Of a DNA stretch of 57,761 nt, positions 26,347 through 41,466 are shown in pieces. Numbering within the stretch: position 1 is the first letter of the stretch; the number at the start of each line of letters is the position of its first letter. The notes under the pieces were generated by a model. It did no database searches. It was not told the origin of the DNA and worked only from the letters and a program-made list of their open reading frames with translations. The stretch lies in NCBI GenBank assembly GCA_025356095.1, contig JANXUR010000061.1, forward strand, positions 1-57,761, in the 5' to 3' direction. Source of the DNA: Acidobacteriaceae bacterium. GTDB lineage: Bacteria; Acidobacteriota; Terriglobia; Terriglobales; Acidobacteriaceae. A program made the position numbers and the translations under genes.

Positions 26347-29300
26347 CTAATTTTCGACGTAAGCGGTTGCTTCCGCCTCAGGCCGGGTGCGGCTTAAATA
26401 GTAATTCATGGCGGGCGTAACCAAAAGCGACAACACCATGGAGACCAGAATCCCGCCAATCACCGCAACGGCCAGCGGCTGCAACATCTGCGACCCCGCG
26501 CCCCATGCCAAAGCCAGGGGCAGCATCCCCGCCATCGCTGCCAGCGCGGTCATCATAATGGGGCGCAACCGCCGCCGACCTGCCTGAAAGATGGCTTCTT
26601 CTGCGGATACGCCCAGGCTGCGCAGTTTTTGTTCTGCGTCCAGCAGCAAAATGCCATTCTTGGCCACAATGCCGATGACCATGATGAGTCCCATGAACGA
26701 TGCGATGTTGAACGTGATGCCGGTGACCAGCAGGGCGAGAAATACGCCGGAAGTAGAGAGCAGCGCTGAGGTGAGAATGGAGAGCGGCGCCGCGAAGGTG
26801 CGGAATTCGTAGAGTAAGACTGCGAACACACACACCACAGCCAGTACCAGCACAAAGGCGAGATCGTGGAACGAGCGCTGCTGCTCCTCATATGCGCCGC
26901 CGTAAACCACGCGAATGCTCTGTGGCAGGTGAAGGCCCGCCACCGCTTGCTTTACTGCTGCAACCCCTGTGCCAAGGTCGCGGCCTTCGAGTCTGGCCGT
27001 AACGGCAACCAAACGCTGCAAGTTTTCGCGGCGAATCTCTTCCTGACCCGGAATCTCAGTGAGTGCAGCCAAGGAACCCAGCGTTGCCGTCTTGCCAGTG
27101 CTGCTGTTGAGCAGCGTGTTATTCATGGCTTCCAGCGAGTCGCGGTTATGGCCCGCATAGCGTACGCGGATGGTATAGGCGCGATCGTTGACGATGACTG
27201 GCGTGGCCGCTGGCGCGCCCTGCAAAATTGCGGAAGCATCGGTGCTGACCTCTTCGGGCGTAAAGCCAGCCCGCGCTGCGGTGGCAGGATCTACCTGCAA
27301 ATTCACCGCCGGGCCACTGATGGTGTTTTCAATGCCGTCCAGTTCATCCACCACGCCCGGAACCTTTTGGATGGCATCGGCGACTTTAGGTGCCCACAAG
27401 CGCAGCAGCGCCGGGTCGTGGGCAAACAGCTTGATCTGGATCGGTTCGGGTGCGCTGGTCAGGTCGCCAATCATGTCCTGCAACAGTTGCACAAACTCCA
27501 CGTTCAGGGCAGGCTCTTCGCGGGCAATACGGGTGCGGACGTCGGCGATGATGTCGTCTATGGCGCGGCTGCGGTCGCGCTTCAGCTTGACGGTGAGGTC
27601 ACCGGTATTGGCTTCGGTCACAGCGGCCAGACCCAGTTGTAGGCCTGTGCGGCGCGATGTGGTTTCCACCTCAGGCACTTCGGCCAGCATGTGTTCCACA
27701 TGGCTGATGACGCGGTCGGTCTCTTCCAACGAGCTGCCAGCAGGCATGATGTAGTCGAGCACAAATCCGCCTTCATCCATGGCAGGCAACAGGTCAGAGC
27801 CGAGAGCACGATAGCTAACGGCTGAAACCGCCACCACGGCGAGGCAAAACACAATCAGCAGACGGGGCCGCGCGACGGTCAGGCGCAACGCCTTATCATA
27901 CAACCGCAAGATCTTGCCGAAGAAGCCGGATTCTTCGTGTTGTGCCAGCGCCTGCTCATGTTCCAGCGCTGCTGCGCCGTGTCCGTGTCCGCGCTCGCCT
28001 TCGCCCAGAGCTTCGGCGCCGGGTTGCACTTCTAGGTCGTGGATCAGAAACTGGCTCAGGCAAGGGGTCCAGGTGACGGCCAGAATCAACGAAGTGAATA
28101 ACGATGCAGCGACCGTGATGGCGAGCGCTCGAAAGAATGTACCCGTCACGCCGGTGATGGCGATCAGTGGCAAGAACACAACAATGGGTGTGATCGTGGA
28201 AAAGATGAGCGGCCCGGTGATCTCGCGGAGCGCACAATCCACAGCATGCAGGCCACGTTCCCCCGCGTCGCGATGCAACACAATGTTTTCCACCACCACG
28301 ATGGCATCATCAATTACCAGGCCGACCGCAGCCGCCAACCCTCCCAGCGTCATCAAGTTGAAGCTCTGCCCCATCCACTTCAGCACGATAAAGGTGATGA
28401 GCAGAGTGACCGGGATGACCATGCCCGCAACCACAGAAGTGCGCCAGTCCCGCAGGAACAGCACCATGATGATGGAGGCGAGAATGATGCCGATTAATAC
28501 CGCGTCGCGCACACTGGCGATGGAATCGCTCACGATGTTCGACTGGTCGTAGAACACTTGCAACTGAACGCCGGCGGGCAGCGTCTGGCGAATCGCGTCC
28601 ACCTCGGCGTGTACGGCGCTGGCTACGTCGAGCGTGTTGCCTTCGGGCTGGCGATTGATATTGAGCAGAACGGCGGGCTTTCCATTCGCGCGAACGGCCG
28701 TATAGACCGGCTTCACAGAGGGGCCAACTTCGGCGACGTCGCCAACGCGGATAGGAATGCCCGCCCCAGTGGTTTTGATGACGATGTTGCCAATGCCGCC
28801 GCCGCTGTTGACTTGTCCATTGACCAGCGTCAGAAACAGTTGATGGTTGCGTTCGATCAGGCCTGGCGAATCAATCAGATTAGTGCGGCGAATGGCATCC
28901 AGAATGTCACTGACTGTAACGCCGGTGGCGAGCAGCTTCGCGGGATTCGGTGCTACCTGAAACTCGGGTTCTTCGCCGCCCTGTACCAGCACGGTGGAAA
29001 CGCCATCCAGCCGGTTGAGCCGTGGCTTGATCTCGTATGTGGCCATCTCCCAAAGCTTGGTTTGCGGTACTGTGTCGGAGGTTAAGCTATAGCCGAGAAT
29101 AGGAAAGCTGGCGAAGGTGAGCTGATGGCTTTGTACTTTGGCACCAGCGGGTAGCAGGCCCTGGGCACGGGCGAGGGCGGAATCCACCCGCTGCAAGGTC
29201 AGCGGCATATCTGCCTTCCAGTCGAAAAACAGGTCAATCTCTGCCGAGCCCCGGCTGGTGATGGAGCGAACCTGACGCAGGTCTTGCACTGCGTTGACCT

Positions 29301-29592
29301 CTTCTTCCACCGGTCGCGTGATTGTGACCAGCATCTGATCAATCGGCATCACACCGTTATCAATCGCGATTAGTACCCGCGGAAAGTTAGTGGCCGGAAA
29401 GACGGTGACGGGAATAGTGAAAGCGAGATAGCCGCCTGCCAACGACATCGCCAGAGCCAAAAAGACGATGAACCGGGGATGCGCCTCGACCCAGCGGGCG
29501 GAAACGCTAGTAAGCGCGGCGCGCGCTTTTTCCCGGCTGGCGCGGTCGGTCATGGAGTCGAAAAATGAAAGCGTCTTTTTCAGCAGAGGCAT
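26347..29592 (-). CDS. RND efflux transporter, inner-membrane pump
   Basis: A 1081-residue proton-driven pump of the AcrB/CusA superfamily. The first membrane helix is near residues 40-60; helix 4 carries the proton-relay pair Asp428-Asp429 in GLVIDDAIVVVEN. Large periplasmic loops lie between helices 1-2 and 7-8, and GRRRLRPIMMTALAAMAGML near the C-terminus is the conserved helix-11 entry. A charged insert around residue 550 (acidic, then a His/Gly-rich EGERGHGHG) is unusual; it falls in the cytoplasmic linker between halves and might bind metal. The pair of acidic relay residues fits drug or solvent (HAE) as well as some metal pumps, so the substrate is open. It is the last gene of a TolC-adaptor-pump operon, 17 bases after the adaptor gene. 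Confidence 0.94.
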   Translation of the reverse strand: MPLLKKTLSFFDSMTDRASREKARAALTSVSARWVEAHPRFIVFLALAMSLAGGYLAFTIPVTVFPATNFPRVLIAIDNGVMPIDQMLVTITRPVEEEVNAVQDLRQVRSITSRGSAEIDLFFDWKADMPLTLQRVDSALARAQGLLPAGAKVQSHQLTFASFPILGYSLTSDTVPQTKLWEMATYEIKPRLNRLDGVSTVLVQGGEEPEFQVAPNPAKLLATGVTVSDILDAIRRTNLIDSPGLIERNHQLFLTLVNGQVNSGGGIGNIVIKTTGAGIPIRVGDVAEVGPSVKPVYTAVRANGKPAVLLNINRQPEGNTLDVASAVHAEVDAIRQTLPAGVQLQVFYDQSNIVSDSIASVRDAVLIGIILASIIMVLFLRDWRTSVVAGMVIPVTLLITFIVLKWMGQSFNLMTLGGLAAAVGLVIDDAIVVVENIVLHRDAGERGLHAVDCALREITGPLIFSTITPIVVFLPLIAITGVTGTFFRALAITVAASLFTSLILAVTWTPCLSQFLIHDLEVQPGAEALGEGERGHGHGAAALEHEQALAQHEESGFFGKILRLYDKALRLTVARPRLLIVFCLAVVAVSAVSYRALGSDLLPAMDEGGFVLDYIMPAGSSLEETDRVISHVEHMLAEVPEVETTSRRTGLQLGLAAVTEANTGDLTVKLKRDRSRAIDDIIADVRTRIAREEPALNVEFVQLLQDMIGDLTSAPEPIQIKLFAHDPALLRLWAPKVADAIQKVPGVVDELDGIENTISGPAVNLQVDPATAARAGFTPEEVSTDASAILQGAPAATPVIVNDRAYTIRVRYAGHNRDSLEAMNNTLLNSSTGKTATLGSLAALTEIPGQEEIRRENLQRLVAVTARLEGRDLGTGVAAVKQAVAGLHLPQSIRVVYGGAYEEQQRSFHDLAFVLVLAVVCVFAVLLYEFRTFAAPLSILTSALLSTSGVFLALLVTGITFNIASFMGLIMVIGIVAKNGILLLDAEQKLRSLGVSAEEAIFQAGRRRLRPIMMTALAAMAGMLPLALAWGAGSQMLQPLAVAVIGGILVSMVLSLLVTPAMNYYLSRTRPEAEATAYVEN

Positions 29593-29609
29593 GGGGTTCG
29601 AGTGGAAGC

Positions 29610-30968
29610 TCAGTCTTCCTTTGCGCCGGGTTTGGTGGATTTGTCTTCCTGCACAGCGGCGGGCTTCTCGTCGCTGGCCGCATCCTCAATCAGCTTGACC
29701 GCAGTGCCGTCTGGCAATGCAAAAGCTCCGGCGGTCACCACACGATCGCCCGGCTTGACGCCCGTAGTGATCTGCACCAGGTTGCCCTGACGAATGCCAA
29801 CCTCCACCTTCTGTGTCGCCGCCTTCAGGTCGCTGCTGACCAGCATTACGGTAGTGGCACCGTCCGCACCAGTCAGCACCGCTGATGCCGGCACTGCCAC
29901 CGCATCGGCGACCTCTTTCGCGACGACTACCACGCGCGCTGTCATCCCCGGCTTCAACAAATGCTTGGGGTTGGCCGCCTCCACCCAAACCTCGATGGTG
30001 GTGCTGTTCTGGTCTACGGCGGGACTCACCAATGTAACCTTGCCCGCGACCGGGACATCCGCGCCCGGGACTTCGAGCGTGGCCTCGTCGCCGGGCTTGA
30101 GCAGCCCGGCATCGGCTTGCGGCATGTGCGCCTTGGCAATGATCTTTGAGAGATCCATCACCGTGAGCAGGGGCGTACCCGCAGCGGCCATCTCGCCGGG
30201 ATAGAGTGGACGTTCGGTGACGTAGCCGTTGATGGGGCTACGAATTTCAGAGTAGGCGAGCTGTGCGGCAGCACCAAGATGATGGCCTTTGGCGGCGGTG
30301 AGCTGGCCTTCGGCCGACTTCTTCTGTAACTGGTGTCCACTGGCTTGCAATGCATCGTAATGCTGTTTGGCGATTTCGTAAGTGTTTTTGGTTTGAATCA
30401 GCGAAACCCGCGATTGGTCGAGATCTTTGCGGGGCAGCGCACCTTGCTGAAACAGGTTCTCCCGGCTGTCGTAGACTTTTTGCTCGGCTTCCAACGTCTG
30501 TTGCGCGGCGTGCAGATCGAGTTCGGCTTTGCGCAACTCTTCGCCCAGCAGCGCCCCGGTGTTGCGGTCGTAGTCAGCCTGCGCTTGCTGATACGAGCCG
30601 CGAGTCTCCACCTCAGCGGCGTTCAGGTCGGTGTTCTCCAGCACGGCAAGCAACTGGCCTTCTTTTACGGGACTGCCGCGATTCACCAGAAACTGCTTGA
30701 CCGGTGCGCTGATTTTGGGCGTGATGGCAGCCTGATGAATGGGAAACAGCACGGCATCTGCCGTCACCAGCCGACGTATGGCGGTCTTCTGCGCCACAGC
30801 GATGCGTACGGAAACCTTGGGTGCCTGCTCGGGTGCCGACTTGGTGCAACCTGCCAGAAGACTGCCTAACGTGGCCAGCACAAGCAGGGCGACCGCGCGA
30901 GAAACGGTCAGGTCGCGATGCTTCTGTGAAGTTGGGGCTTGCAATTCGTTGCTGGCTGCGAAAGTCAT
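29610..30968 (-). CDS. RND efflux periplasmic adaptor lipoprotein
   Basis: A 452-residue membrane-fusion protein linking the RND pump to the outer-membrane channel. After residue 22 a hydrophobic stretch ends in the lipobox LLAGC with Cys41, so the protein is likely anchored in the inner membrane by lipid. The order of domains is that of the HlyD/AcrA family: a first lipoyl half (AAITPKISAPVKQFLVNRGS), a long alpha hairpin from about residue 115 to 210, the second lipoyl half (EIRSPINGYVTERPLYPGEM), beta-barrel and membrane-proximal domains. The C-terminal tail is rich in Lys, Glu and Asp. It lies between the TolC-like gene (five bases) and the pump gene (17 bases), so the three are one operon. 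Confidence 0.93.
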   Translation of the reverse strand: MTFAASNELQAPTSQKHRDLTVSRAVALLVLATLGSLLAGCTKSAPEQAPKVSVRIAVAQKTAIRRLVTADAVLFPIHQAAITPKISAPVKQFLVNRGSPVKEGQLLAVLENTDLNAAEVETRGSYQQAQADYDRNTGALLGEELRKAELDLHAAQQTLEAEQKVYDSRENLFQQGALPRKDLDQSRVSLIQTKNTYEIAKQHYDALQASGHQLQKKSAEGQLTAAKGHHLGAAAQLAYSEIRSPINGYVTERPLYPGEMAAAGTPLLTVMDLSKIIAKAHMPQADAGLLKPGDEATLEVPGADVPVAGKVTLVSPAVDQNSTTIEVWVEAANPKHLLKPGMTARVVVVAKEVADAVAVPASAVLTGADGATTVMLVSSDLKAATQKVEVGIRQGNLVQITTGVKPGDRVVTAGAFALPDGTAVKLIEDAASDEKPAAVQEDKSTKPGAKED

Positions 30969-30973
30969 GCGAA

Positions 30974-32407
30974 TTAGAGGCTCCCGGTCAAAGTTTGCAG
31001 TGTGGCCAAGGCCAGCCGGTAGCGAGCCTGCCCGTCATCATACGCGTTGCGGGCTGTGACCAGCGTGTTTTGCGCGTCCACCACTTCCAGCGCGTTCGCC
31101 TCACCTGCCTGATAGCGCAGGGTGGTCAGATGCAGACTTTGTGCTGCGATCTCCGAAGAGTCGCGTAGCGAGTCGAGCTCGGCGCGGGCCGCGTCGGCTT
31201 CAGCATAGAAGCCGCGCAAGTTGGCTAGCGTCTGGCGTTGCGCGGCGCTTAGCTCCAGCTTAGATTGGTCGCGGCGCAACGTCGCTTGTTTGACCTTGCT
31301 TTCCGAGGCCCACCAGTTCCAGACCGGCAGATTCAAGCTCACCGCAGCAGAGTAGCCTACATTGCGCAGACCGTTGGTGCTGGTCTCAAAGCGCGGAGCG
31401 TCCAGACCGTAGTTGTAGTCGAAGCCGAGTGTAGGGAACAGGCCGCTGCGCGCCACCAGTACTTCTTTGGCAGAAACGTCGAGTGCAGCCACGGCTGCAC
31501 GCACGTCCAGATTATTCACGGCCGCCAGCCGCGTTGCTTCTTCCATGGTCGGCAGCGGCGGGCCGAGTTGCAGGTCATCCACCACGGTGAAGTTCTCGTT
31601 GAAGTCAGGGAAGAGCAGAACTGCGAGTGTGAGACGAGCCTTTTCCAGATTGAGTTGGCTTTCGCGGAAGTCGCGGCCACGGTCATTGGCCTGCAGTTTG
31701 GCCTTGATGGTGTCGGCATGGGCTACTTCGCCACCCTGTTCCAATTGCTGCGTGATAGTCAGGAAGTGAGAGGCTTCGTCCGAGGCTGCTTGCGTATTCG
31801 CATAGCGGCGCTGCGCCACCACCAGCCCATAGTAACTCTGGGTGACGACTACGGTGAGACCGCGCGCTGCTATCTCTGCCTTGGCTTTGGCCAGCGCCTC
31901 CGCTGCAGTGGAGCGCTGGTAATCTGCAACTTGTCCGCCAGCGATATTCAGATTTTGGTGCAGGTTGCCCTGCGCTGTGTACTCATGCACTCCATTGCTG
32001 GCGCTAAAGCGTCCGTTGCCGGAATGGGTGCCATCGCTTTGAGTAAAAATCGCACCACCCACCAGATTTACGCTGGGCAACAGGCCCGCGCGAGATTGAA
32101 TTCGATCCTGCTGCGCGGATTTGAAATCCGTTTGCGCGGACTGATACTGCGGATTCAGCCGCTGGGCGCGCTGAAGCGCATCTTGTAGCGAGAGAGTCGT
32201 GGGAGCAGCCGAGGCCGTAGTCGCGATGGCAATTGGTGCGGAAGGTGGCACTTCCTGCGGTGTTTGGGCATCCACGCTAACACCCGCCATGGCGACTGCA
32301 AAGCTTGCGGCAAGACCAGTGATCTGCGCCACGCGCAAGCCCGAAGCTGGCAGAAAACGCGGCACCCACAGAAATCGGAACGCATTTGCAGAGGCGATGT
32401 GCATCAT
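30974..32407 (-). CDS. TolC-family outer-membrane efflux channel
   Basis: About 477 residues; the start could be either ATG at 32407 or 32404, or one at 32428. A signal peptide follows (GLAASFAVAMAGVSVDAQ). The mature protein is almost all long helices in two repeats, as in TolC: ALQRAQRLNPQYQSAQTDF in the first half and EATRLAAVNNLDVRAAVAAL in the second, with beta strands that form the barrel (AAVSLNLPVWNWWASESKVK). The protein would form the trimeric exit duct for the RND pump encoded directly downstream. There is an 87-base-plus gap to the upstream sulfatase gene, so the efflux operon promoter is likely within 32408-32515. Confidence 0.92.
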   Translation of the reverse strand: MMHIASANAFRFLWVPRFLPASGLRVAQITGLAASFAVAMAGVSVDAQTPQEVPPSAPIAIATTASAAPTTLSLQDALQRAQRLNPQYQSAQTDFKSAQQDRIQSRAGLLPSVNLVGGAIFTQSDGTHSGNGRFSASNGVHEYTAQGNLHQNLNIAGGQVADYQRSTAAEALAKAKAEIAARGLTVVVTQSYYGLVVAQRRYANTQAASDEASHFLTITQQLEQGGEVAHADTIKAKLQANDRGRDFRESQLNLEKARLTLAVLLFPDFNENFTVVDDLQLGPPLPTMEEATRLAAVNNLDVRAAVAALDVSAKEVLVARSGLFPTLGFDYNYGLDAPRFETSTNGLRNVGYSAAVSLNLPVWNWWASESKVKQATLRRDQSKLELSAAQRQTLANLRGFYAEADAARAELDSLRDSSEIAAQSLHLTTLRYQAGEANALEVVDAQNTLVTARNAYDDGQARYRLALATLQTLTGSL

Positions 32408-32515
32408 GACGATTGGGCTCCGAGGCAATAGAACGGCGCTGATAGTATGCTTTGCATTTTAGACGCAATTGGATGAATTCTGGATGAAAGCGGCCCTGAG
32501 AATTCTTCCAAAGCG

Positions 32516-34234
32516 CTACTGGGCTGCAAGTTGGCGCTCGCGCTTGGCCTCGTCGGCCTGGCCGAGTTTGGCGTAGGCCTCTGCCAACGCCGCGTGGGCT
32601 GGCGCATATTTCGCAAGCCGCGCGGCGGCAATCGCCAGATGCACCGCCGCAGTCTTGGCATCCCCCGACCTTAGCAGCGCCACCCCAATCTGGCAGTGCG
32701 CCCAGGCTGACTCAGGCTGAAGCTGAATGGCGCGATGCAGTGCGGGGATGGCGTTGGCATAGTGCTGCTGCTGGTTGAGCGCGACCCCCAAAGCGTAATG
32801 CGCCAGAAAGGCCCCGGGTATGGCGCTGGCAGCAGTTTGCAACGCGGCGGTGGCTCGGTCTGGTTTACCGGCGGCAACCATTTGTGCGGCGGCAAGCACG
32901 CGGTTCGCATCGGCAATCCTATCTTTGGGGTCGGTGCCGGTGAGGCCTGCACTGCTCACGTTCGCTTTCTGCAATCCCACATAGCCTAAAGAAGCCAGTT
33001 TCTGCGTTTCGCTGGAAGAAAGTCCGGAGGCTGAGCTTTGCCCAGTAGGGGCTGCCAGACGCCGCGTGAAGGCATCCAGTTGGCCGGCCATGGTGTCGAG
33101 CGTAGCTTTGGAGCTTCCAGCCAGATTGTGAGTCGCGCCGGAGTCGGCCGCAAGATCGTACAGTTCCGGCCTAGGTGCCCGGATATACAGATACTTACCG
33201 GCCCGCCAAGACTCTGTCACAGACCAACCCATTGCGCGCTGGCCGAAGTCACTGCGCGAATAGACCGGCTGCTCGGCGGCAGTTGCCTTGGCCGTGCGCA
33301 ACAGACTCTGCCCTTGCATTTGCGCGGGGATGGCAACGCCTGCCGCCTCCAGCAGCGATGGTGCGAGGTCCAGCAAACGCACCCGAGCACTCACGCGTGT
33401 GGCCGCCATCTGATTCTGCGGCAGCTTCACCAGCAACGGCACGTGCAAGGTTTCTTCGTAGAGAAAAATGCCGTGCGTATCCTCGCCGTGCGCGCCAAGG
33501 CTTTCCCCGTGGTCGCCAGCCACGGCAATCATGGCGTCGTCAAAGAGCTTCTTCTGGCGCAGCGCGCTTAGCAGCTTGCCCAGAGCCGCGTCTTCCGCGG
33601 CCACGGCTGCCTCGTACGAGCCTGCGCGCGGTGCATCGGCGTCGGAGAGGTGAATCCACAAAAAGAACGGCATGGAATTGTTGTGTACGAGCCACGCCAT
33701 GGCTCGTGCTGCGATTTGCGCTCCCCGTCGGCGTGACGACTGATACGTGTCCTCACCGCGTGCTGTGGCGTGGAACCCAGCGTCAAAACTGTCAAAGCCG
33801 CGATCAAAGCCTTGGGCCAGACCGCTCCGCGGGTCGAGGTCGAGCGACGCGACGAAGGCCGCTGTGTGGTATCCCTTGGCCTTGAAGAGCGCGGGCAGGT
33901 ACGGCAAGGCAGGGGCAAGCGCTGCGCCAAACTCGCTCACCTGATTGGTTTGGGGATAGGTGCCAGTGAGGATCCCGGCGTGCGATGCGACGGTGGTGGG
34001 CACCTGCGCATAAGCCCGCTCAAAAACGAAGGACTGTTTGGCCAGCCCGTCAAGGTTCGGCGTGGTGCCTGTGTGAGACCCGAGAGCGCCCACGCGGTCC
34101 GCGCGAACGCAATCGAGCGTAATAAGGATGACGTTGGGCTTGTTGGGAGCGGCAGACACCCACCCGCTAAACCCGACGAGGATTGTTGCCAGCCATGCCA
34201 TTGCCCGCGTGAACCGAAAACTTGCCATGCGCAA
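32516..34234 (-). CDS. Sulfatase-like (alkaline phosphatase superfamily) protein with C-terminal TPR repeats
   Basis: A 572-residue exported or membrane-anchored protein: signal or anchor at residues 8-28, sulfatase fold from 33 to about 380, TPR repeats from about 440 to the end. The metal-site ITLDCVRAD (Asp41) and GDHGESLGAHG are clear. The position that holds the formylglycine Cys/Ser in true sulfatases is Thr81 (TVASHAGILTG) and the following Arg is His85, so the enzyme is probably a phospho-transferase or phosphodiesterase rather than a sulfatase, as in EptA/LtaS-type relatives that use Thr. A linker motif KLASLGYV precedes the TPRs. It is divergent from the two phosphodiesterase-like genes at 34325 and 37542. 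Confidence 0.85.
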   Translation of the reverse strand: MRMASFRFTRAMAWLATILVGFSGWVSAAPNKPNVILITLDCVRADRVGALGSHTGTTPNLDGLAKQSFVFERAYAQVPTTVASHAGILTGTYPQTNQVSEFGAALAPALPYLPALFKAKGYHTAAFVASLDLDPRSGLAQGFDRGFDSFDAGFHATARGEDTYQSSRRRGAQIAARAMAWLVHNNSMPFFLWIHLSDADAPRAGSYEAAVAAEDAALGKLLSALRQKKLFDDAMIAVAGDHGESLGAHGEDTHGIFLYEETLHVPLLVKLPQNQMAATRVSARVRLLDLAPSLLEAAGVAIPAQMQGQSLLRTAKATAAEQPVYSRSDFGQRAMGWSVTESWRAGKYLYIRAPRPELYDLAADSGATHNLAGSSKATLDTMAGQLDAFTRRLAAPTGQSSASGLSSSETQKLASLGYVGLQKANVSSAGLTGTDPKDRIADANRVLAAAQMVAAGKPDRATAALQTAASAIPGAFLAHYALGVALNQQQHYANAIPALHRAIQLQPESAWAHCQIGVALLRSGDAKTAAVHLAIAAARLAKYAPAHAALAEAYAKLGQADEAKRERQLAAQ

Positions 34235-34324
34235 GTTTACTTGCTAAGGCACCGCCTACCCAAGCGTGGTGGGCATCGCCAGATGGCCCACCGGGTGCTT
34301 TGGAAACCGCGCCTGCCATTCGGT

Positions 34325-36391
34325 ATGCTTGAGGAGTCCAAGTTGTTCATCGCGGCACCACACGCTTTCGTGCCGCTGGAGCGATTCCTGAAAAAGTTGA
34401 TCCTCATTATGGGTGCACTACTGGTGGTGGCCGCAGCGGCTTTCTACCTGCTGCATCGTGCGCCGACTTGGCGCGGTGCGCAGCGAGTTGTTGTCCTCGG
34501 TATTGACGGCATGGATCCGCAACTGCTGCGGCGCTATATGGCCGAAGGCCGGATGCCGAATTTCGCCAAGCTGGCGGCGAGGGGGTCGTTCACCCCGCTG
34601 GGCACAAGCATCCCTCCGCAGAGCCCGGTTGCTTGGTCGAATTTAATTACCGGACAAAACGCTGGAGGCCACGGCATCTTCGACTTTATTCATCGCGACC
34701 CCAAAACGATCGGCCTGTACTTTTCTACCTCAAAAGTAGAAGGCCCCAAGCATTCCGTGAGCGTTGGCCCATGGGTGGTGCCGCTGGGCAGCGGTACGGC
34801 CGAGCAACTGCGCCACGGCAAAGCCTTTTGGGAAGTTCTCGACGACCACGGAATTCCGAACACCATCTTCCGTATTCCGGCGAACTTTCCGCCAGTCCCC
34901 GCCAAGGGTAAGACGCTTTCGGGCATGGGTACGCCCGATTTGCAAGGCACCTATGGGACTTTCACCTTTTACACCGACGATCCGCTGGCTGCGACAGGCG
35001 CTGTGGAAGGTGGGCAAATCGTTCCCGTCGAAGTACAAAATTCCCAAGTGAGGGCGAACCTGATTGGGCCGGTCAACAGTTTTCGCAGAGGTGCGCCCGC
35101 CGCAACGGAGCCATTTGTGGTTTCGGTTGATCCCACCGAAGCTGCCGCGCACTTTGCGGTACAAGATGCGCAGTTTGTTCTGCGCGAAGGCGAGTGGAGC
35201 CCGTGGGTGCACGTGCAATTCCGACTCATCCCGTTCTTTGGCAATGTGAAGGGCATTTGCCGCTTTTATCTTAAGCAGACGCATCCGCGTTTCCAGCTTT
35301 ACGTTTCGCCCATCAATATGGACCCCGCCGACCCCGCGCTACCAATCGCAACGCCTTCGAGCTACTCGCGCGATTTGGCGGAAGAGTCGGGCGACTTTTA
35401 CACGCAGGGCATTTCAGAGGACACCAAGGCACTCAGCGCGGCAGTGCTCGACGACAAAGAATATTTGCAGCAGGCCAAAGAAGTGTTGGCCGAGCATCGG
35501 CGGATGTTTGATGCCGAGTTCGGAAGGTTTGCCGCGACGTCTGAGGCGTCGAAGGCAGGCCTCTTCTTCTTTTATTTTTCGAGCCTCGACCTTAACTCCC
35601 ACATGTTCTGGCGGCTCACTGATCCGTCGCATCCTGGATATGATGCCGCCCTAGCAGCCGACCACGGTACTGCCATTGCCGACTTCTACGTGCAGATGGA
35701 TGAAGTGCTTGGCGAAGTACTCGCGAAACTCGACGAGCGCACCACGCTTCTTGTCGTCAGCGACCACGGCTTCGCGCCCTACACCCGATCCTTCAACTTG
35801 AACACATGGCTACTGCAGCAGGGCTACATCGTGCTTAAACCTGACTCATCGCCAGACGCCGATTCCGCCGAGCCGCTCGCCAACGTGGATTGGAGCCGCA
35901 CCCGCGTTTACGGGCTGGGGCTGAACGGGCTGTACCTCAACCTGCGGGGCCGTGATCGCGAAGGCATCGTTGCACCGGGCGAAGAAGCCCGTCGCCTGAT
36001 GCAAGAAATAAACGACAAGCTGCTCGCGGTGCGCGATCCGAAAAATGGCCAGCCTGTGATCACCCGCATGGATCGTGCTCAAGACGTATATCAAGGCCCC
36101 TACGCGCAGGCTGGGCCCGACGTGATCGTCGGCTACAATCGCGGCTACCGTGCGGGATGGAAGACGATTCTCGGTGGGTTGCCGCCCGATGTGCTAGAAG
36201 ACAACCTGAACCCGTGGAGTGGCGACCACTGCATGGACTACACTCAGGTGCCCGGGGTGCTGCTGAGCAATCGCAGGCTGCGCCCCGGCAGCCACGCACT
36301 CACTGACATCGCGCCCACGATTCTTGCGGAGTTTGGCATCGCGCCTACCCCGGGTATGATGGGACATTCTGTGCTGGAAGTCCGCAAGTAG
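34325..36391 (+). CDS. Membrane-anchored type I phosphodiesterase/alkaline-phosphatase-superfamily protein, first paralogue
   Basis: About 688 residues from the ATG at 34325; a TTG at 34343 with GAGGAG seven bases before it is a strong alternative, and the long frame before 34325 overlaps the divergent gene and is not real. One membrane helix lies near residues 24-43, then the catalytic domain. Asp61 in VVVLGIDGMD, Ser100 in PQSPVAWSNLITG at the nucleophile position, SLDLNSHMFWR (Asp and His), SDHGF and WSGDHCMD supply the two-zinc site residues of the superfamily. The catalytic domain would face the periplasm. It shares the PPxSPVAWSxxxTG, SDHGF and WSGDHC motifs with the gene at 37542. The physiological phosphodiester is unknown; envelope lipid or glycan head groups are a reasonable guess. 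Confidence 0.85.
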   Translation: MLEESKLFIAAPHAFVPLERFLKKLILIMGALLVVAAAAFYLLHRAPTWRGAQRVVVLGIDGMDPQLLRRYMAEGRMPNFAKLAARGSFTPLGTSIPPQSPVAWSNLITGQNAGGHGIFDFIHRDPKTIGLYFSTSKVEGPKHSVSVGPWVVPLGSGTAEQLRHGKAFWEVLDDHGIPNTIFRIPANFPPVPAKGKTLSGMGTPDLQGTYGTFTFYTDDPLAATGAVEGGQIVPVEVQNSQVRANLIGPVNSFRRGAPAATEPFVVSVDPTEAAAHFAVQDAQFVLREGEWSPWVHVQFRLIPFFGNVKGICRFYLKQTHPRFQLYVSPINMDPADPALPIATPSSYSRDLAEESGDFYTQGISEDTKALSAAVLDDKEYLQQAKEVLAEHRRMFDAEFGRFAATSEASKAGLFFFYFSSLDLNSHMFWRLTDPSHPGYDAALAADHGTAIADFYVQMDEVLGEVLAKLDERTTLLVVSDHGFAPYTRSFNLNTWLLQQGYIVLKPDSSPDADSAEPLANVDWSRTRVYGLGLNGLYLNLRGRDREGIVAPGEEARRLMQEINDKLLAVRDPKNGQPVITRMDRAQDVYQGPYAQAGPDVIVGYNRGYRAGWKTILGGLPPDVLEDNLNPWSGDHCMDYTQVPGVLLSNRRLRPGSHALTDIAPTILAEFGIAPTPGMMGHSVLEVRK

Positions 36392-36399
36392 GAGCGCTC

Positions 36400-36609
36400 A
36401 TGTTCGGCGGCTACAAAGTGAAGATTGACGAAGACCTCGTTACCAAGTTGAAGATTGTGGCGGAAGCAGGCGGCTATGAGTCGGTGGAGGAGTTTGTGGC
36501 TCATGTGCTGGAGCGCGAGGTGGGCAAGTTGCTGCCGGAAGGCGACGCCAACGCGACCTCGAAAGAGGCCGTGAAGAAGCGCTTGCGGGGGTTGGGATAT
36601 ATCGAGTAA
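36400..36609 (+). CDS. Small conserved-looking protein ending in LGYIE, between two phosphodiesterase genes
   Basis: A 69-residue protein starting eight bases after the phosphodiesterase stop, with AGGAG overlapping that junction. The pattern YKVKIDEDLVTKLKIVAEAG, then ESVEEFVAHVLEREV resembles a strand-helix-helix ribbon protein (CopG/Arc-like), but the expected DNA-binding context is missing. The C-terminus RLRGLGYIE resembles the LASLGYV linker of the nearby TPR-sulfatase. Tight spacing and the same strand argue for translation with its neighbours. I do not recognise a characterised family; a small accessory of the phosphodiesterase or a regulator of the operon are both possible. Confidence 0.75.
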   Translation: MFGGYKVKIDEDLVTKLKIVAEAGGYESVEEFVAHVLEREVGKLLPEGDANATSKEAVKKRLRGLGYIE

Positions 36610-36623
36610 TCATTTTTGCATTT

Positions 36624-36671
36624 GAGTTGTCATTCTGAATTCCGCCCAAGCGGACGAAAACCCCTGCCCAA
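36624..36671. repeat. Possible degraded REP-like dispersed repeat
   Basis: The gap between the small protein and the membrane protein gene begins TTGTCATTCTGA and contains TCCGC-CCAA-GCGGA and AACCCCTGCCC, a layout similar to dispersed palindromic units common in acidobacterial genomes. Only one copy is in the window, so the call rests on general resemblance. Confidence 0.3.
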
Positions 36672-36693
36672 TCACAAGACCATACTTAAGCGA

Positions 36694-37545
36694 ATGCCGA
36701 CTGTCTTACATCTCGCGCTGGCAAGCTACACTGCGGGCATTGTGGCGAACACTATGGTGAACTCTGCGACCAGCATAGTGACCAACAATGACTGGCCGCT
36801 GATCGTAACGCTCGCCGCATCGGTCATCGTCGGCTTCGGCATGGTAGTGCTCTTCGGCTATGCATCGAATCAACGTGCAATCAAACGCGCGAAGGCCCAG
36901 ATTCAGGGCAATTTACTCGCCGTGCGTTTGTTTCAAGATCAAATCAGCGCGGTGCTGAAGAGCTATGTCGGCATCCTCACTTCACTCGGCCGCTACCTGC
37001 GCCTGTCATTCGCGCCGCTGCTCATCGTCATCGTTCCGCTCACGCTGCTCATCACCCAGATGGATCGCTATCTCGGCAATACGCCGATCTCACCGGGGAA
37101 ACCCTTTCTGGTGAAGGCGCACGTGAGCAATGCCGACACACTCAGCGATGTAGCGCTGCAAGATTCAACCGGTCTGGCGGTTCCAGCGCAAGTAGTCCGT
37201 GTGCCCGCTGAAAGCGAAGTGATTTGGCGGGTGGATGGTCTGCCGCCCGGCGAGCAGACTCTCAACGTGGTGTTCGGCGGAATCAGCGTCTCCAAGAATA
37301 TTGTGGTGGGCAATGGCATGGCACGGCTCTCGAGCATTCGTATGCGCCAGCCGCTGTGGAAGCGCTGGATGGAGTCTGGCGAGCCTGCGATTGAGACCGG
37401 CGCAGCGGTTGAGTCCATCGAAGTCCTCTACCCGCCGCGCGATATCGCTATCTTCGGCTTTGGCATGGGCTGGCTTCTCTGGTTCTTTGTGTTTTCCATC
37501 ATCGCTGGATTCATCTTTAAGAGTCTGCTGGGGATTGAGATATGA
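36694..37545 (+). CDS. Three-helix membrane protein (possible Oxa1/EMC3-like topology)
   Basis: A 283-residue integral membrane protein. The ATG at 36694 is chosen because the frame before it runs through the REP-like sequence. Helix 1 spans about residues 35-55; a basic amphipathic stretch (SNQRAIKRAKAQIQGNLLA onward, 58-100) follows; helix 2 is 103-121; residues 130-245 look like a beta domain (PGEQTLNVVFGGISVSKNIV); helix 3 is 251-278. A helix, cytosolic coiled segment, then further helices recalls the EMC3/TMCO1/DUF106 branch of the Oxa1 superfamily, but I cannot show homology. Its stop overlaps the start of the next phosphodiesterase gene (ATGA), so the two are translationally coupled and probably work in one complex. 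Confidence 0.8.
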   Translation: MPTVLHLALASYTAGIVANTMVNSATSIVTNNDWPLIVTLAASVIVGFGMVVLFGYASNQRAIKRAKAQIQGNLLAVRLFQDQISAVLKSYVGILTSLGRYLRLSFAPLLIVIVPLTLLITQMDRYLGNTPISPGKPFLVKAHVSNADTLSDVALQDSTGLAVPAQVVRVPAESEVIWRVDGLPPGEQTLNVVFGGISVSKNIVVGNGMARLSSIRMRQPLWKRWMESGEPAIETGAAVESIEVLYPPRDIAIFGFGMGWLLWFFVFSIIAGFIFKSLLGIEI

Positions 37546-39719
37546 TGCGCGCTCGAGCCTTCCTCACCGGCCAGCGCCGTATGCTGCTCGCAGCATTGCT
37601 GCTCGCTGTGATTTTCACGCCAGCGCACGCTCACGCTTATGCGGGGCCCGGCGCGGGCTTTGCGGTGTTGTCCTCGTTTTGGACTCTATTCGTCGCCTTC
37701 GTGTATTCCGCGTACGCTCTGCTTACCTGGCCGTTTCGAACCATGTTGCGGCTGCTGCGCCGCCGCAAAGCGTTCGCAAAAGCGCAGATTCGTCGCGCAG
37801 TGATTCTCGGCTTCGACGGCATGGACCCCGGGCTCTCTGCCCGCTACATGGATGAAGGCAAGCTGCCGAATTTGGCGCGGCTGCGTGATACAGGCACCTT
37901 CAGAAATTTGCGGACTACCAATCCGCCGATCTCTCCGGTGGCGTGGTCCACCTTCATGACCGGTGTGAATCCCGGCAAGCACAACATCTACGACTTTCTC
38001 GCCGTGGACCGCCGCAGCTATCTGCCGTTTCTTTCATCGGCGGAGATTAAAGGCCCAAAACGCCGCATTCATCTCGGCAAATATTCCATCCCGCTCGGCA
38101 AGACGGAGATCAAACGGATGCGGCGCGGTACGCCCTTCTGGCACTGGCTGGGCAAGGCTGGGATTTTTTCTTCCATCATTCGTGTGCCCGTCACCTTTCC
38201 GCCAGAAAAGTTTCCCGGTGTGTTGCTTTCTGGCATGTGCGTGCCTGACCTTAAGGGAAGTCAGGGGACTTTCTGCCTATGCAGCACCGCAGCAGGCGGT
38301 GCATTTCGTGAAGGCGGCACGCGCGTGCCTATGGCGCGCGCCGGTGCCAAGCTCCACTCCTACATTCCGGGGCCGGAGAATCCTCTCGCGAACCCCAGCG
38401 CCGAAAGTCCAGCCGAAGAACTTCGCGTGCCTTTTGAGGTCGTCGTCAACGCCGCGCAGAATGCCGCCAAAATCACCGTTGGCTCGAGCCGCAAAGAGAG
38501 CTTCACCATAAAGCTCGGCGAGTACTCCGATTGGATCCCCATCGAGTTCAAGGCAGGACTCGGCCTGAACGCGCACGGCATCTGCCGCTTTTATCTGAAG
38601 CAGCTCGCGCCCGAGGTGGAAGTATATGTGACGCCCGTAAATATTGACCCCGCCAAGCCGGATCTGCCGATCTCGCATCCCATTACGTATTCGGTCTATC
38701 TCGCCAAGATGTTTGGTGCCTTTGCCACGCTCGGTCTGGCGGAAGATACGTGGGCACTCAATGAGGAAGTGCTCGATGACGACGCGTTTCTTGCGCAGTG
38801 TTATGGCAATCATGAAGCCCGCGAGCGGCAGCTATTCGACGCGCTGGAGAAGACGCCCGAGGGCTTGTGCACTTGCGTCTTCGACAGCACCGACCGCGTG
38901 CAGCATATGTTCTGGCGCTATTTGGAAAAGGATCATCCCGCAACGCGCGGCTTGCCGCAGTACGCTACGCACAGCGATAAGCCACTGGTAATTGAAAATC
39001 TGTATCGCCGGGTGGATGAACTGGTGGGCCGCGTGATGGCCAAGGTAGACAAGCAACAGAACGGCAAGACGCTGGTGATGGTGATCTCCGATCATGGCTT
39101 CCAAAACTTTGCGCGCGGCTTTAACCTGAATGCATGGCTGCACCAGAATGGCTACCTAACGCTGTTACCGGGCAAGAGCGAGAGTGGCGACTGGTTTGAG
39201 GATGTGGACTGGTCGTGTACCCGCGCCTACACCATGGGACTAAATGGTCTGTTTCTGAACATGCAAGGGCGGGAGCGGCAGGGCATTGTCGCGCCGGGTG
39301 CAGAGGCCGAAGCGCTGAAGGTCGAACTCACCGCCAAGCTGAGCGGTCTCGCCGACACTGAAGCCGGACGCATCGCCATCTCTGGCGTGTGGGACACCGA
39401 CGATGCCTACGTTGGCCCCTACGTGGAAAACGCGCCAGATCTACTGATTGGCTACGGCGACGGCGTGCGTGCGTCGTGGGATTCAGTGATGGGCAAAGTC
39501 ACCTCTGCCATTTTCGAAGACAACACCAAAGCCTGGAGCGGCGACCATTGCGTGGATCCGAGGCTGGTGCCGGGTGTGCTATTTTGTAATCGCACAATCG
39601 CGGAAGAAAATCTCGCGATTGTAGACGTCGCACCGACGATGCTGAAACTCTTCGGCCTAGAGCCTCCGAGTTACTACGACGGCAAGGCGTGGACAGTGGC
39701 GGGCATTGCGAACAAGTGA
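37542..39719 (+). CDS. Membrane-anchored type I phosphodiesterase/alkaline-phosphatase-superfamily protein, second paralogue
   Basis: A 725-residue paralogue of the gene at 34325. The N-terminus has a signal or first helix (MLLAALLLAVIFTPAHA), an AYAGPGAG motif at residues 32-39, a second helix about 42-64 and a basic stop-transfer stretch (RRRKAFAKAQIRR). The catalytic domain begins with VILGFDGMD (Asp92), has Ser131 at the nucleophile position in PPISPVAWSTFMTG, then DRVQHMFWR, SDHGFQNFARGFNLN and WSGDHCVD, giving a complete two-metal site. AYxGPGAG-type leaders recur in this protein family. ATG 37542 overlaps the previous stop. It converges on the CRTAC1 gene with only ten bases between them. 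Substrate unknown; the pairing of two paralogues with a membrane protein suggests envelope lipid or polymer modification. Confidence 0.87.
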   Translation: MMRARAFLTGQRRMLLAALLLAVIFTPAHAHAYAGPGAGFAVLSSFWTLFVAFVYSAYALLTWPFRTMLRLLRRRKAFAKAQIRRAVILGFDGMDPGLSARYMDEGKLPNLARLRDTGTFRNLRTTNPPISPVAWSTFMTGVNPGKHNIYDFLAVDRRSYLPFLSSAEIKGPKRRIHLGKYSIPLGKTEIKRMRRGTPFWHWLGKAGIFSSIIRVPVTFPPEKFPGVLLSGMCVPDLKGSQGTFCLCSTAAGGAFREGGTRVPMARAGAKLHSYIPGPENPLANPSAESPAEELRVPFEVVVNAAQNAAKITVGSSRKESFTIKLGEYSDWIPIEFKAGLGLNAHGICRFYLKQLAPEVEVYVTPVNIDPAKPDLPISHPITYSVYLAKMFGAFATLGLAEDTWALNEEVLDDDAFLAQCYGNHEARERQLFDALEKTPEGLCTCVFDSTDRVQHMFWRYLEKDHPATRGLPQYATHSDKPLVIENLYRRVDELVGRVMAKVDKQQNGKTLVMVISDHGFQNFARGFNLNAWLHQNGYLTLLPGKSESGDWFEDVDWSCTRAYTMGLNGLFLNMQGRERQGIVAPGAEAEALKVELTAKLSGLADTEAGRIAISGVWDTDDAYVGPYVENAPDLLIGYGDGVRASWDSVMGKVTSAIFEDNTKAWSGDHCVDPRLVPGVLFCNRTIAEENLAIVDVAPTMLKLFGLEPPSYYDGKAWTVAGIANK

Positions 39720-39729
39720 TTCTCCAGCC

Positions 39730-41466
39730 CTAAAATCCGTTCTGCCCCGCGATACCCTTACCCTCGGTGCATTCATACGCGCGGCCCGCAGCCACGTTCT
39801 TAAACTCTTCCACTCTTCCGCTGGGCCAGTAAATCACCATGCGTTCGGCAGTCGCCTGCTTGCCCAGCCCAAACGTCAGCGGCAGTTCAGATTGCGACAA
39901 ATAGCTTGACCCGCTTTTCACCATGCGCGTCTGCGCCATGCCACTCGATTCCACTCGCACCACGGCGCCAATGCCATCACGATTCGACTTTGTCCCCACC
40001 AGCCGCAAGCGCAGGCTGTGGTTGCCATTCGCTACATCATTGCGGTAGAGGTACGCCGGGCCATCGTTGGTCGTCAATAGCAGATCCAAATCGCCATCGC
40101 GGTCGAAGTCACCATATGCCAAGCCCCGCGCCACCTTGGGTGCGGCAAAGGCGCTGCCAACTTCTGCAGCCACGTCATGAAATTTGCCGCTGCCATCGTT
40201 TAGAAACAGCTGCGGCGGCTGCGCATAGCCCGCATGGCCAGAGATGTTGCGCACGGTGTCGTCAATATGGCCGTTCGCCACCGCCAGATCAAGCCAGCCA
40301 TCTAAATCGAAATCCGCAAACGCGCAGCCAAAGCCCAGCGTAGTCTTCGACGCGCGGCCCACGCCGGAAGCCAGCGCAACGTCCTCATACGAGCCGTTGC
40401 CGGTGTCGCGATACAGCCCGATCATCTCGTTGTCGAAATTGGTCACGGCAATGCTGGCCACGCCCGCGTTGCGATAGTCGGCTACATCCACGCCCATGCC
40501 GGCACGCGCCTTGCCCTCGGTGCTAAAAGCAATTCCTGCCTCCACCCCTATGTCGCGGAAGGTGCCGTTCTTCTGGTTGCGATATAGCTTGTTGGGCTGG
40601 GTGTCGTTAGCCACAATCAGGTCAAGCCAGCCATCGCGGTCTACATCCACCAGCGCTACGCCCAACGACTTCGAACTGGTATCGAAGATGCCGCTCTTGG
40701 CGGAAACATCCTCAAAGGTGCCATCGCCACGATTGTGAAAAAGCCAACAGGTTTCGCCGCGATACGCCTCGGGAGTGCAATAGCTTTTGCGCTTGCCATC
40801 GAGGCTGCAAAAGACGTCTTTATCCTGCGACCAGCGCACGTAGTTGCACACAAACAGGTCGAGCAGGCCGTCGCGGTCGTAATCGAACCACAGCGCGGAG
40901 GTGCTAAGCGCCATGCGACTGCCCAAGCCGCTGCTATGGGTGGCGTCCACAAACGTGCCTTTGCCGGTGTTACGAAACAGCCGGTTCTGGCCCACGCAGG
41001 TCACGAGGATGTCGGGGAAGCCATCATTGTTGTAGTCGCCAACGGCCACGCCCATGCCGTACATCGAGAGCTCGAGCCCGGCGGCGCGCGTTACATCCGT
41101 AAAGGTGCCATTGCGATTGTTGCGATAAAGCTTGAGCGTGGAAGCTGCCGGTGCCATACTCCGTTTGTGACCCGGCCAGTCCGAGCCATTCACCAGCAGA
41201 ATGTCTTGCCAGCCGTCGCCATCGTAGTCCAGAAAGGCGCAACCGGCTCCGAGCGTCTCGGGCAGTAGTTTGCCGCCATAGGCCCCGTTGTTGTGGCGGA
41301 AGTTGATGCCAGCGGATTGCGTGACATCGGTGAGATGAAAGCCGGGATTCGCACTTGGACTGGCGGCCCATAGCGCCGACTCGCCCAGCGCCGAGGCCGC
41401 TGCGGCTGCGGTCGTCAGGCCGCAGAAGCCCTGCAGAAACGAACGCCGGTTGAAGCGATGGCTCAC
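39730..41466 (-). CDS. CRTAC1-type protein: VCBS/FG-GAP propeller with ASPIC/UnbV domain
   Basis: A 578-residue Tat-exported protein. RRSFLQGF with the following hydrophobic stretch is a Tat signal. Residues from about 45 on carry at least six calcium-binding FG-GAP/VCBS blades of the form DxDxDGxxD (DYDGDGWQDILL, DYNNDGFPDILV, DYDRDGLLDLFV, DVDRDGWLDLIV, DFDLDGWLDLAV, DFDRDGDLDLLL), an integrin-like propeller. The C-terminal region (GIGAVVRVESSG ... IYWPSGRVEEFKNV) is the ASPIC/UnbV domain. Such proteins are abundant in Acidobacteria and Planctomycetes with unknown function, possibly surface recognition. Its ATG overlaps the stop of the response regulator gene, an unusual physical link between a two-component system and this family. 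Confidence 0.92.
   Translation of the reverse strand: MSHRFNRRSFLQGFCGLTTAAAAASALGESALWAASPSANPGFHLTDVTQSAGINFRHNNGAYGGKLLPETLGAGCAFLDYDGDGWQDILLVNGSDWPGHKRSMAPAASTLKLYRNNRNGTFTDVTRAAGLELSMYGMGVAVGDYNNDGFPDILVTCVGQNRLFRNTGKGTFVDATHSSGLGSRMALSTSALWFDYDRDGLLDLFVCNYVRWSQDKDVFCSLDGKRKSYCTPEAYRGETCWLFHNRGDGTFEDVSAKSGIFDTSSKSLGVALVDVDRDGWLDLIVANDTQPNKLYRNQKNGTFRDIGVEAGIAFSTEGKARAGMGVDVADYRNAGVASIAVTNFDNEMIGLYRDTGNGSYEDVALASGVGRASKTTLGFGCAFADFDLDGWLDLAVANGHIDDTVRNISGHAGYAQPPQLFLNDGSGKFHDVAAEVGSAFAAPKVARGLAYGDFDRDGDLDLLLTTNDGPAYLYRNDVANGNHSLRLRLVGTKSNRDGIGAVVRVESSGMAQTRMVKSGSSYLSQSELPLTFGLGKQATAERMVIYWPSGRVEEFKNVAAGRAYECTEGKGIAGQNGF

Follow-up and report, generated by a model that had tools for sequence, protein, structure and literature searches.

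The window, the whole 57,761-nucleotide contig JANXUR010000061.1 of an Acidobacteriaceae bacterium (assembly GCA_025356095.1), carries at positions 32516 to 39719 a cluster of five genes. It was described in an initial annotation, made from the sequence alone, as a dedicated envelope module. When the window sequence was re-read, all five genes were found where that annotation had placed them. A tetratricopeptide repeat (TPR) protein of sulfatase-like fold is on the minus strand (32516..34234), divergent from four genes on the plus strand. These are PDE1, a phosphodiesterase of the nucleotide pyrophosphatase/phosphodiesterase (NPP) type (34409..36391, with its start codon uncertain, at 34409 or upstream, for example 34325); RHH, a 69-residue ribbon-helix-helix-like protein ending in KRLRGLGYIE (36400..36609); MEM, a membrane protein (36694..37545, starting at 36694 or later); and PDE2, a second NPP-type phosphodiesterase (37542..39719). 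The MEM stop and the PDE2 start overlap as ATGA at 37542-37545, which is also seen in all five relatives from the same taxonomic order. Scans for promoters and terminators gave hits that were no more frequent than in shuffled sequence.

Linkage of the four plus-strand genes was assessed in 117 scanned sequences, these being the window and 116 other loci. One locus without MEM (L068) and duplicates sharing the same MEM end were dropped, leaving 107 non-redundant loci. The sequence upstream of MEM reaches 4.5 kb or more in 88 of these and 8 kb or more in 73. Genes were called with simple open reading frame (ORF) scripts, and some starts and frames are wrong in the GC-rich loci. PDE1, RHH, MEM and PDE2 are together on the same strand in 84 of the 88 loci. 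Individually, PDE2 is found at 87, PDE1 and RHH at 86 each, and PDE3, a soluble third enzyme that is often part of the module, at 51. The same-strand core is present in 44 of 45 loci from the scan of named genomes, 18 of 19 from Planctomycetota, all five relatives from the window's order and the window itself, giving 68 of 70 once the 18 loci found through PDE2 are excluded; these 18, which are not independent for PDE2, have the core in 16 cases. There are four exceptions, with PDE1 adjacent on the opposite strand (L062), RHH on the opposite strand (L070), PDE1 absent (L127), or RHH absent and PDE2 not labelled (L193). The four-gene set is almost certainly a real conserved module. The expectation of a neighbourhood conserved across phyla was thus borne out in Acidobacteriota, Planctomycetota and other lineages, and singly scattered homologues without linkage, the other outcome envisaged in the initial annotation, are clearly not what these loci show.

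The commonest order is PDE3-PDE2-PDE1-RHH-MEM, at 46 of the 88 loci, followed by PDE2-PDE1-RHH-MEM at 20. The arrangement in the window, where PDE3 is not linked, is PDE1-RHH-MEM-PDE2 and is found at six. MEM is matched at E<=0.001 in 6 of 150 genomes sampled from the window's order, counting the window's own, and the other five all have this same order with a divergent TPR protein. Because it is shared by all five, the arrangement is regarded as more than chance. In the phylum, PDE2 is matched at E<=0.001 in 188 of 297 genomes. A tally by eye gives 75 places at E<=4e-200, spread over 74 genomes, and PDE1 commonly follows directly there. MEM is within the fetched stretch at 19 of 20 loci with a strong PDE2 match. 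The pattern scan was run with a 7-member subset, the full 25-sequence MEM alignment being too variable for it; it reaches relatives near the subset and makes no statement on the full spread. Named bacterial and archaeal genomes, scanned with a MEM profile, gave 71 loci, mostly in records titled Acidobacteriota or Aminicenantes. Other records are titled Planctomycetota, Deltaproteobacteria, Gemmatimonadetes, Pseudomonadota, Clostridiales and candidate division B38, where the titles of metagenome-assembled genomes can be wrong. MEM is in all seven genomes of a small group around the Gemmatimonadetes record. Of 199 sampled Planctomycetota genomes, 41 match it at E<=0.001, and a tally by eye places 32 of these at E<1e-20. 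The flanking genes that recur (aminotransferases, nitroreductase, OmpH-like, ABC transporter parts and rhamnosidase) are provisionally taken as general synteny of one lineage.

The AlphaFold model of MEM has a mean predicted local distance difference test score (pLDDT) of 85.1 and the succession of helix, coiled coil, helix, beta domain and helix that had been read from the sequence. Helix 1, taken as transmembrane, spans model residues 34-57 (36793..36864), and is followed by a coiled-coil hairpin and helix 2 at residues 60-128 (36871..37077), delimited from the model and the alignment with archaeal MJ0480. A filamin/Ig-like beta domain, identified from the model and fold searches, occupies approximately residues 130-259 (37081..37470) and precedes helix 3 at residues 260-279 (37471..37530). 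The only significant protein matched in the PDB by the profile of 25 MEM sequences is MJ0480 (5c8j), with E=1.1e-11 and coverage of helix 1, the coiled coil and helix 2. The same match is made by a broader alignment of 21 sequences (E=4.3e-11) and by the window's 6-member family alone (E=1.4e-4). Helix 3 is collinear with the last helix of MJ0480 after the insert, an agreement that is weak by itself.

PF01956 is matched at E<=1 by 11 of the 25 MEM members, with a best value of 3.1e-6, and at E<=1e-3 in 15 of 149 genomes of the phylum. Of six PF01956 places read in longer frames, five are YidC by PF02096, and in the sixth (L236) no YidC was seen; a weak PF01956 match alone therefore cannot single out MEM. 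The five confirmed YidC proteins have no positive score with the MEM profile. In fold searches with the whole MEM model the lists were filled by the beta domain, matching filamin and other Ig-like folds with a best Z of 6.2, and no Oxa1-superfamily chain was among the 50 matches listed. Since the beta domain occupied these lists, this is not evidence against membership, and the placement is decided by sequence comparison. On this basis MEM very probably belongs to the Oxa1 superfamily and, among the families that could be tested, is nearest to the archaeal DUF106 branch. The hint in the initial annotation that the membrane protein might insert the enzymes, as an insertase-like protein, is in keeping with this superfamily. 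The coiled-coil hairpin would be on the cytoplasmic side, and the filamin/Ig-like domain should be periplasmic. A match to PF06305 (LapA) was rejected as a chance match of helix and coil, having E=6e-4 and 20.1 bits against a cut-off of 28, with 4 of the 25 members matching at E<=1.

The family placement of the enzymes is well supported. Both paralogues match PF01663 far above its cut-off of 23 bits (PDE1 E=4.7e-35, 122 bits; PDE2 E=8.3e-32, 112 bits), as does the PDE3 of L072 with 133 bits, and the TPR protein matches PF00884 (E=9.8e-38) and TPRs in Pfam, which agrees with the earlier count of three alkaline phosphatase superfamily enzymes. PDE1 and PDE2 proteins share 42-44 percent identity. 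Active-site motifs are present as PPQSPVAWSNLITG in PDE1 and PPISPVAWSTFMTG in PDE2. The putative nucleophile of PDE1 is the serine of PPQSPVAWS, S72 counted from 34409 (34622..34624, invariant in 22 of 22 aligned), and that of PDE2 is Ser131 in PPISPVAWS (37932..37934, invariant in 24 of 24). All 24 PDE2 and 22 PDE1 sequences aligned keep the same seven putative catalytic and metal residues, D,S,D,H,D,H,H, which are presumably the two-metal residues of the NPP enzymes. The full two-metal sites with a serine nucleophile that were first described in both paralogues are in keeping with this. The PDE2 model (pLDDT 83.9) has the NPP/ENPP fold, matching ENPP5 with Z 29.7 (root mean square deviation 4.0, 346 aligned) and the Xanthomonas NPP with Z 29.1; its inserted region is mainly beta.

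The N-terminal sequences suggest that the two enzymes differ in location. PDE2 begins with a signal-like helix, the motif GPGAG (37644..37658, invariant in 24 of 24 aligned) and a second helix, after which there is a strongly basic stretch. In all 24 sequences the 26 residues after helix 2 contain 5-10 lysines or arginines and 0-2 acidic residues, and the catalytic domain is therefore predicted to be cytoplasmic. Among 22 PDE1 N-termini, script patterns identified a twin-arginine translocation (Tat) motif in 11, a lipobox in six, both in one and neither in six. PDE1 is therefore predicted to be outside, on the strength of the Tat and lipobox motifs in its relatives. It is likely that the two catalytic domains are on opposite sides of the membrane. 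The initial annotation called both paralogues membrane-anchored; they are probably not both anchored on one side, given the Tat, lipoprotein and Sec-type N-termini of the PDE1 relatives against the basic stretch of PDE2.

The best conserved part of RHH is its C-terminal GLGYI(x), which is invariant in 21 of 21 aligned sequences. Its closest family match is below cut-off, to the FitA-like PF22513 (E=0.027, 14.8 bits against 27), and the RHH profile has no clear match in the PDB, with NikR at E=0.76. RHH is probably an adaptor or a regulator. Of the 1286 genes called across the loci, 114 have a C-terminal LGY tail, and 90 of these are RHH or RHH2, a second RHH-like gene. Several of the tailed genes are CysD-like, a family that may end that way anyway, and only part of the 22 listed APS (adenosine 5'-phosphosulfate) kinase ORFs, in which some contigs are counted twice, have an LGY-type tail. 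The second small RHH-like gene stands before ATP sulfurylase at L134:1144-4322, L139:1210-4343, L127:1681-5143, L196, L198 and L203; where its end was read it has an LGYL-type tail, and some linked APS kinases end in LGYI, LNFID or similar. Small Planctomycetota genes near the module, lipoprotein-like by eye, also have LGYL/LGYVG-like tails (L139:308-802, L189:9713-10243, L194:13292-13807), as do further genes of the same appearance at L196:2978-3484, L203:12980-13486 and L204:2659-3153.

The TPR protein carries a related element, LASLGYVG, before its TPRs, and LxxLGY[ILVM] is found in 15 of 15 distinct TPR-sulfatase homologues compared with 20 of 1192 shuffled ORFs. A docking element that may be shared by RHH, RHH2, part of the APS kinases and the TPR-sulfatases is a lead only. 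Formylglycine sulfatases have the motif Cys/Ser-x-Pro-x-Arg. The TPR protein reads TTVASHAGILTG, with threonine at the nucleophile position and without that motif, so that 'sulfatase' is here a fold name only. Its inclusion in the cluster held in part: it is kept beside the module in the window's family, and it is outside the widespread core. Elsewhere in the window's genome there is another cluster of TPR-sulfatase-like genes (L021:3645-10887, G000:C25).

An association of the module with sulfate activation is new in this analysis. Among the 73 MEM loci that extend 8 kb or more upstream, 21 contain sat, cysC, cysD or cysN in the fetched flanks. When the sulfotransferase-like gene, which is present at seven loci, is counted as well, such genes are found at 29 of the 107 non-redundant loci. 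The typical order is RHH2-sat-AP318-cysC-PDE2-PDE1-RHH-MEM in Planctomycetota and cysD-cysN-PDE3-PDE2-PDE1-RHH-MEM in Acidobacteriota. Examples were named by NCBIfam as Sat, adenylyl-sulfate kinase, CysD and CysN, and each passes the cut-off of one or more subfamily models. The ATP sulfurylases found upstream of the module are of two unrelated types, Sat and CysDN, in different lineages. A functional tie to sulfate activation is best argued from this, and appears somewhat more probable than a chance association. Between sat and cysC at L139:2654-3610 and L134:2638-3594 there is a 318-residue protein of sulfatase fold (PF00884, E=8e-7 for L139) with no obvious signal.

Sulfotransferase-like genes co-occur with MEM. 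In the order sample a strong match was present in 6 of 6 MEM genomes and 6 of 144 others (Fisher 6.5e-8), with a query that came from one of the six MEM genomes, and in the Planctomycetota sample the gene is in 11 of 32 strong-MEM genomes and 8 of 167 others (Fisher 1.1e-5); neither test takes account of phylogeny. Counted by genus, 6 of 42 genera have the sulfotransferase, and these include all five that have MEM (7e-6). An APS kinase domain within a 583-613-residue frame is present in each of the 12 genomes that match the sulfotransferase strongly, and any APS kinase match is found in 57 of 150. On other contigs, the genome of the window carries a bifunctional Sat-CysC (928 bits in NCBIfam against 669) and a sulfotransferase-like gene. 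Its Sat-CysC (G000:C28:31202-31663, L218:4305-7870) has as neighbours an inositol-monophosphatase-family gene and a TauE-type exporter-like membrane gene, an arrangement that would suit supply of 3'-phosphoadenosine 5'-phosphosulfate (PAPS) for sulfation. A CysQ-like reading of this inositol-monophosphatase gene is not firm, as it is below the NCBIfam cut-offs both of CysQ and of its best match, HisN.

Taken together, the locus is read as the form that a widespread and so far unnamed membrane module, with PDE2, PDE1, the RHH-type protein and MEM as its core, takes in Acidobacteriota. Tentatively, the products could form a complex in the membrane for making or editing an envelope compound that is sulfated or phosphodiester-linked, through either transfer or removal of groups. 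The linkage to ATP sulfurylase, APS kinase and sulfotransferase in part of the lineages suggests that this compound is sulfated or made with PAPS. MEM would be a membrane hub, holding PDE2 with its catalytic domain facing the cytoplasm and PDE1 facing the periplasm. Enzymes on both faces could then handle a lipid-linked intermediate on both leaflets. Cytoplasmic enzymes and PDE2 would prepare this membrane-linked intermediate, MEM would hold the enzymes and may help it across the membrane, and PDE1 would finish it outside, with sulfate entering via PAPS in at least part of the lineages. As a whole, this sequence of steps is at best as tentative as its parts. A more specific form is doubtful: MEM as a bacterial EMC3/TMCO1 counterpart, with a DUF106-type core and a periplasmic Ig-like domain, would be the hub of a biosynthetic complex spanning the inner membrane and would hold an enzyme of NPP type on either face. 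Adaptors with an LGYI tail (RHH and the tailed APS kinases) would tie cytoplasmic PAPS synthesis to it, for the synthesis of a sulfated lipid or glycan and its transfer across the membrane. Their tail would then dock in trans, where the TPR-sulfatases carry the element in cis.

Several observations weigh against this reading. The window's MEM has no PF01956 match at E<=1 and no Pfam family above cut-off, PF01956 exceeds its curated cut-off in a single genome of the 149 from the phylum (G169, at its MEM gene), and the YidC proteins of the phylum score with PF01956 about as weakly as MEM does. The window's PDE1 has a hydrophobic anchor only, with neither a Tat nor a lipobox pattern and an uncertain start, and the sidedness is predicted from N-termini and charge. 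No sulfate gene is linked to the module in the window, nor is a sulfate-activation gene found at 52 of the 73 loci with at least 8 kb upstream. The sulfotransferase-like protein of L016, the only copy examined in Pfam, matches PF13469 at E=1e-8, and NCBIfam gave no match at E<=0.001 for the copy from the genome of the window. Sulfotransferase without MEM is found in the order in six genomes at the strong level and eight at E<=0.001, 21 of the 32 strong-MEM Planctomycetota genomes have no sulfotransferase at E<=1e-15, and the Fisher tests leave shared ancestry out of account.

The most serious alternative is that MEM is an insertase or chaperone specific to the operon, acting on PDE2 and perhaps on other envelope proteins and taking no part in the chemistry. 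Membership of the Oxa1 superfamily, the ATGA overlap joining MEM to PDE2, both in the window and in its five relatives from the order, and the two N-terminal helices of PDE2 would all be expected of such a role. In the other arrangements, however, MEM is kept apart from PDE2 and is as a rule last, after PDE1 and RHH. Members of the phylum also have an ordinary YidC, so that there seems little need of another insertase for a single protein with two helices, and the beta domain of MEM is left unaccounted for. This alternative is considered unlikely, while deserving more weight than those that follow.

Two further explanations concern the chemistry, and both are improbable. In the first, the NPP enzymes degrade sulfonucleotides or by-products such as APS, PAPS and 3'-phosphoadenosine 5'-phosphate (PAP), thereby controlling activated sulfate, with MEM as an anchor. 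The NPP fold and the linkage to sat, cysC, cysD and cysN are consistent with this, as is an inositol-monophosphatase-family gene beside a sulfotransferase in L080, possibly CysQ-like, a reading that is not firm because only PF00459 is matched. Yet PDE1 is exported in relatives, away from the cytoplasmic nucleotides, and such a task calls for neither a pair of paralogues with inserted beta regions nor a membrane protein of their own. In the second, phosphodiester-linked groups of the envelope are remodelled without sulfate, for which LtaS and EptA-type transferases offer a comparison, and it is by coincidence that sulfate genes lie nearby in some lineages. A serine at the nucleophile position in enzymes of the alkaline phosphatase superfamily would suit this, as would the 52 loci without sulfate genes, but it does not explain why two non-homologous types of ATP sulfurylase adjoin the module in separate lineages, nor the co-occurrence of sulfotransferase. 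That RHH is an antitoxin or transcription factor in the operon by happenstance is the least probable suggestion, its weak FitA-like match and the toxin-antitoxin-like genes seen by eye downstream of MEM in Planctomycetota (L189:2554-2934, L190:2738-3408; of differing kinds and not beside RHH) being set against its presence at 86 of 88 loci, its best conserved part being the C-terminal GLGYI, and gene lists, read by eye, in which no such genes otherwise stood out beside RHH.

Two sets of genes adjoin the module in the window. On the minus strand at 26347-32428 are a resistance-nodulation-division (RND) efflux pump, a membrane fusion protein and a TolC-like outer membrane protein, identified by eye. 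Directly behind PDE2, on the opposite strand at 39730-41466, is an FG-GAP/ASPIC-UnbV repeat protein with a Tat-like N-terminus.

To our knowledge, the surface lipids and glycans of Acidobacteriota and Planctomycetota, which are large groups in soil and water, are poorly understood, and the module is a handle on their unexplored envelope chemistry. A bacterial branch of the Oxa1 superfamily locked in an enzyme operon would show further uses of this fold in a genetically simple setting. Among the titles and abstract openings listed in literature searches, which do not include most subscription journals, none names a bacterial DUF106-type protein, and those listed on sulfation show no pathway with a MEM-type protein and PDE-type enzymes.

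Parts of the module resemble known systems. Sulfate activation by Sat or CysDN and CysC, and PAPS sulfotransferases (PF13469), are represented by genes that are linked to the module or co-occur with it. PDE1 and PDE2 are like the ENPP family and the Xanthomonas NPP in their PF01663 matches and two-metal residues, and PDE2 also in its fold. They differ in having serine at the nucleophile position, where NPP enzymes have threonine, and in the inserted, mainly beta region, and PDE2 differs in its two-helix GPGAG membrane anchor. With bacterial YidC, MEM shares the superfamily, and PF01956 weakly matches the YidC of the phylum too; MEM is distinguished by three core helices, a beta domain at another place and a profile that misses these YidC proteins. 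Among the families that could be tested, MEM is most like archaeal DUF106 (MJ0480), grouped with EMC3 and TMCO1 in PF01956; it has three helices, the first and second of them separated by a coiled-coil hairpin. In published descriptions DUF106 is a relative of Oxa1 from archaea with three helices, and the superfamily has EMC3 and TMCO1 as eukaryotic members (PMC8887752, PMC8675477); the non-archaeal members of PF01956 are treated as EMC3 and TMCO1 (PMC8675477), and EMC is reported to have been used to complement a yeast oxa1 mutant (PMC8887752). MEM differs from all of these in being bacterial, in the filamin/Ig-like domain of approximately 130 residues between helices 2 and 3, and in its fixed linkage with NPP-type enzymes.

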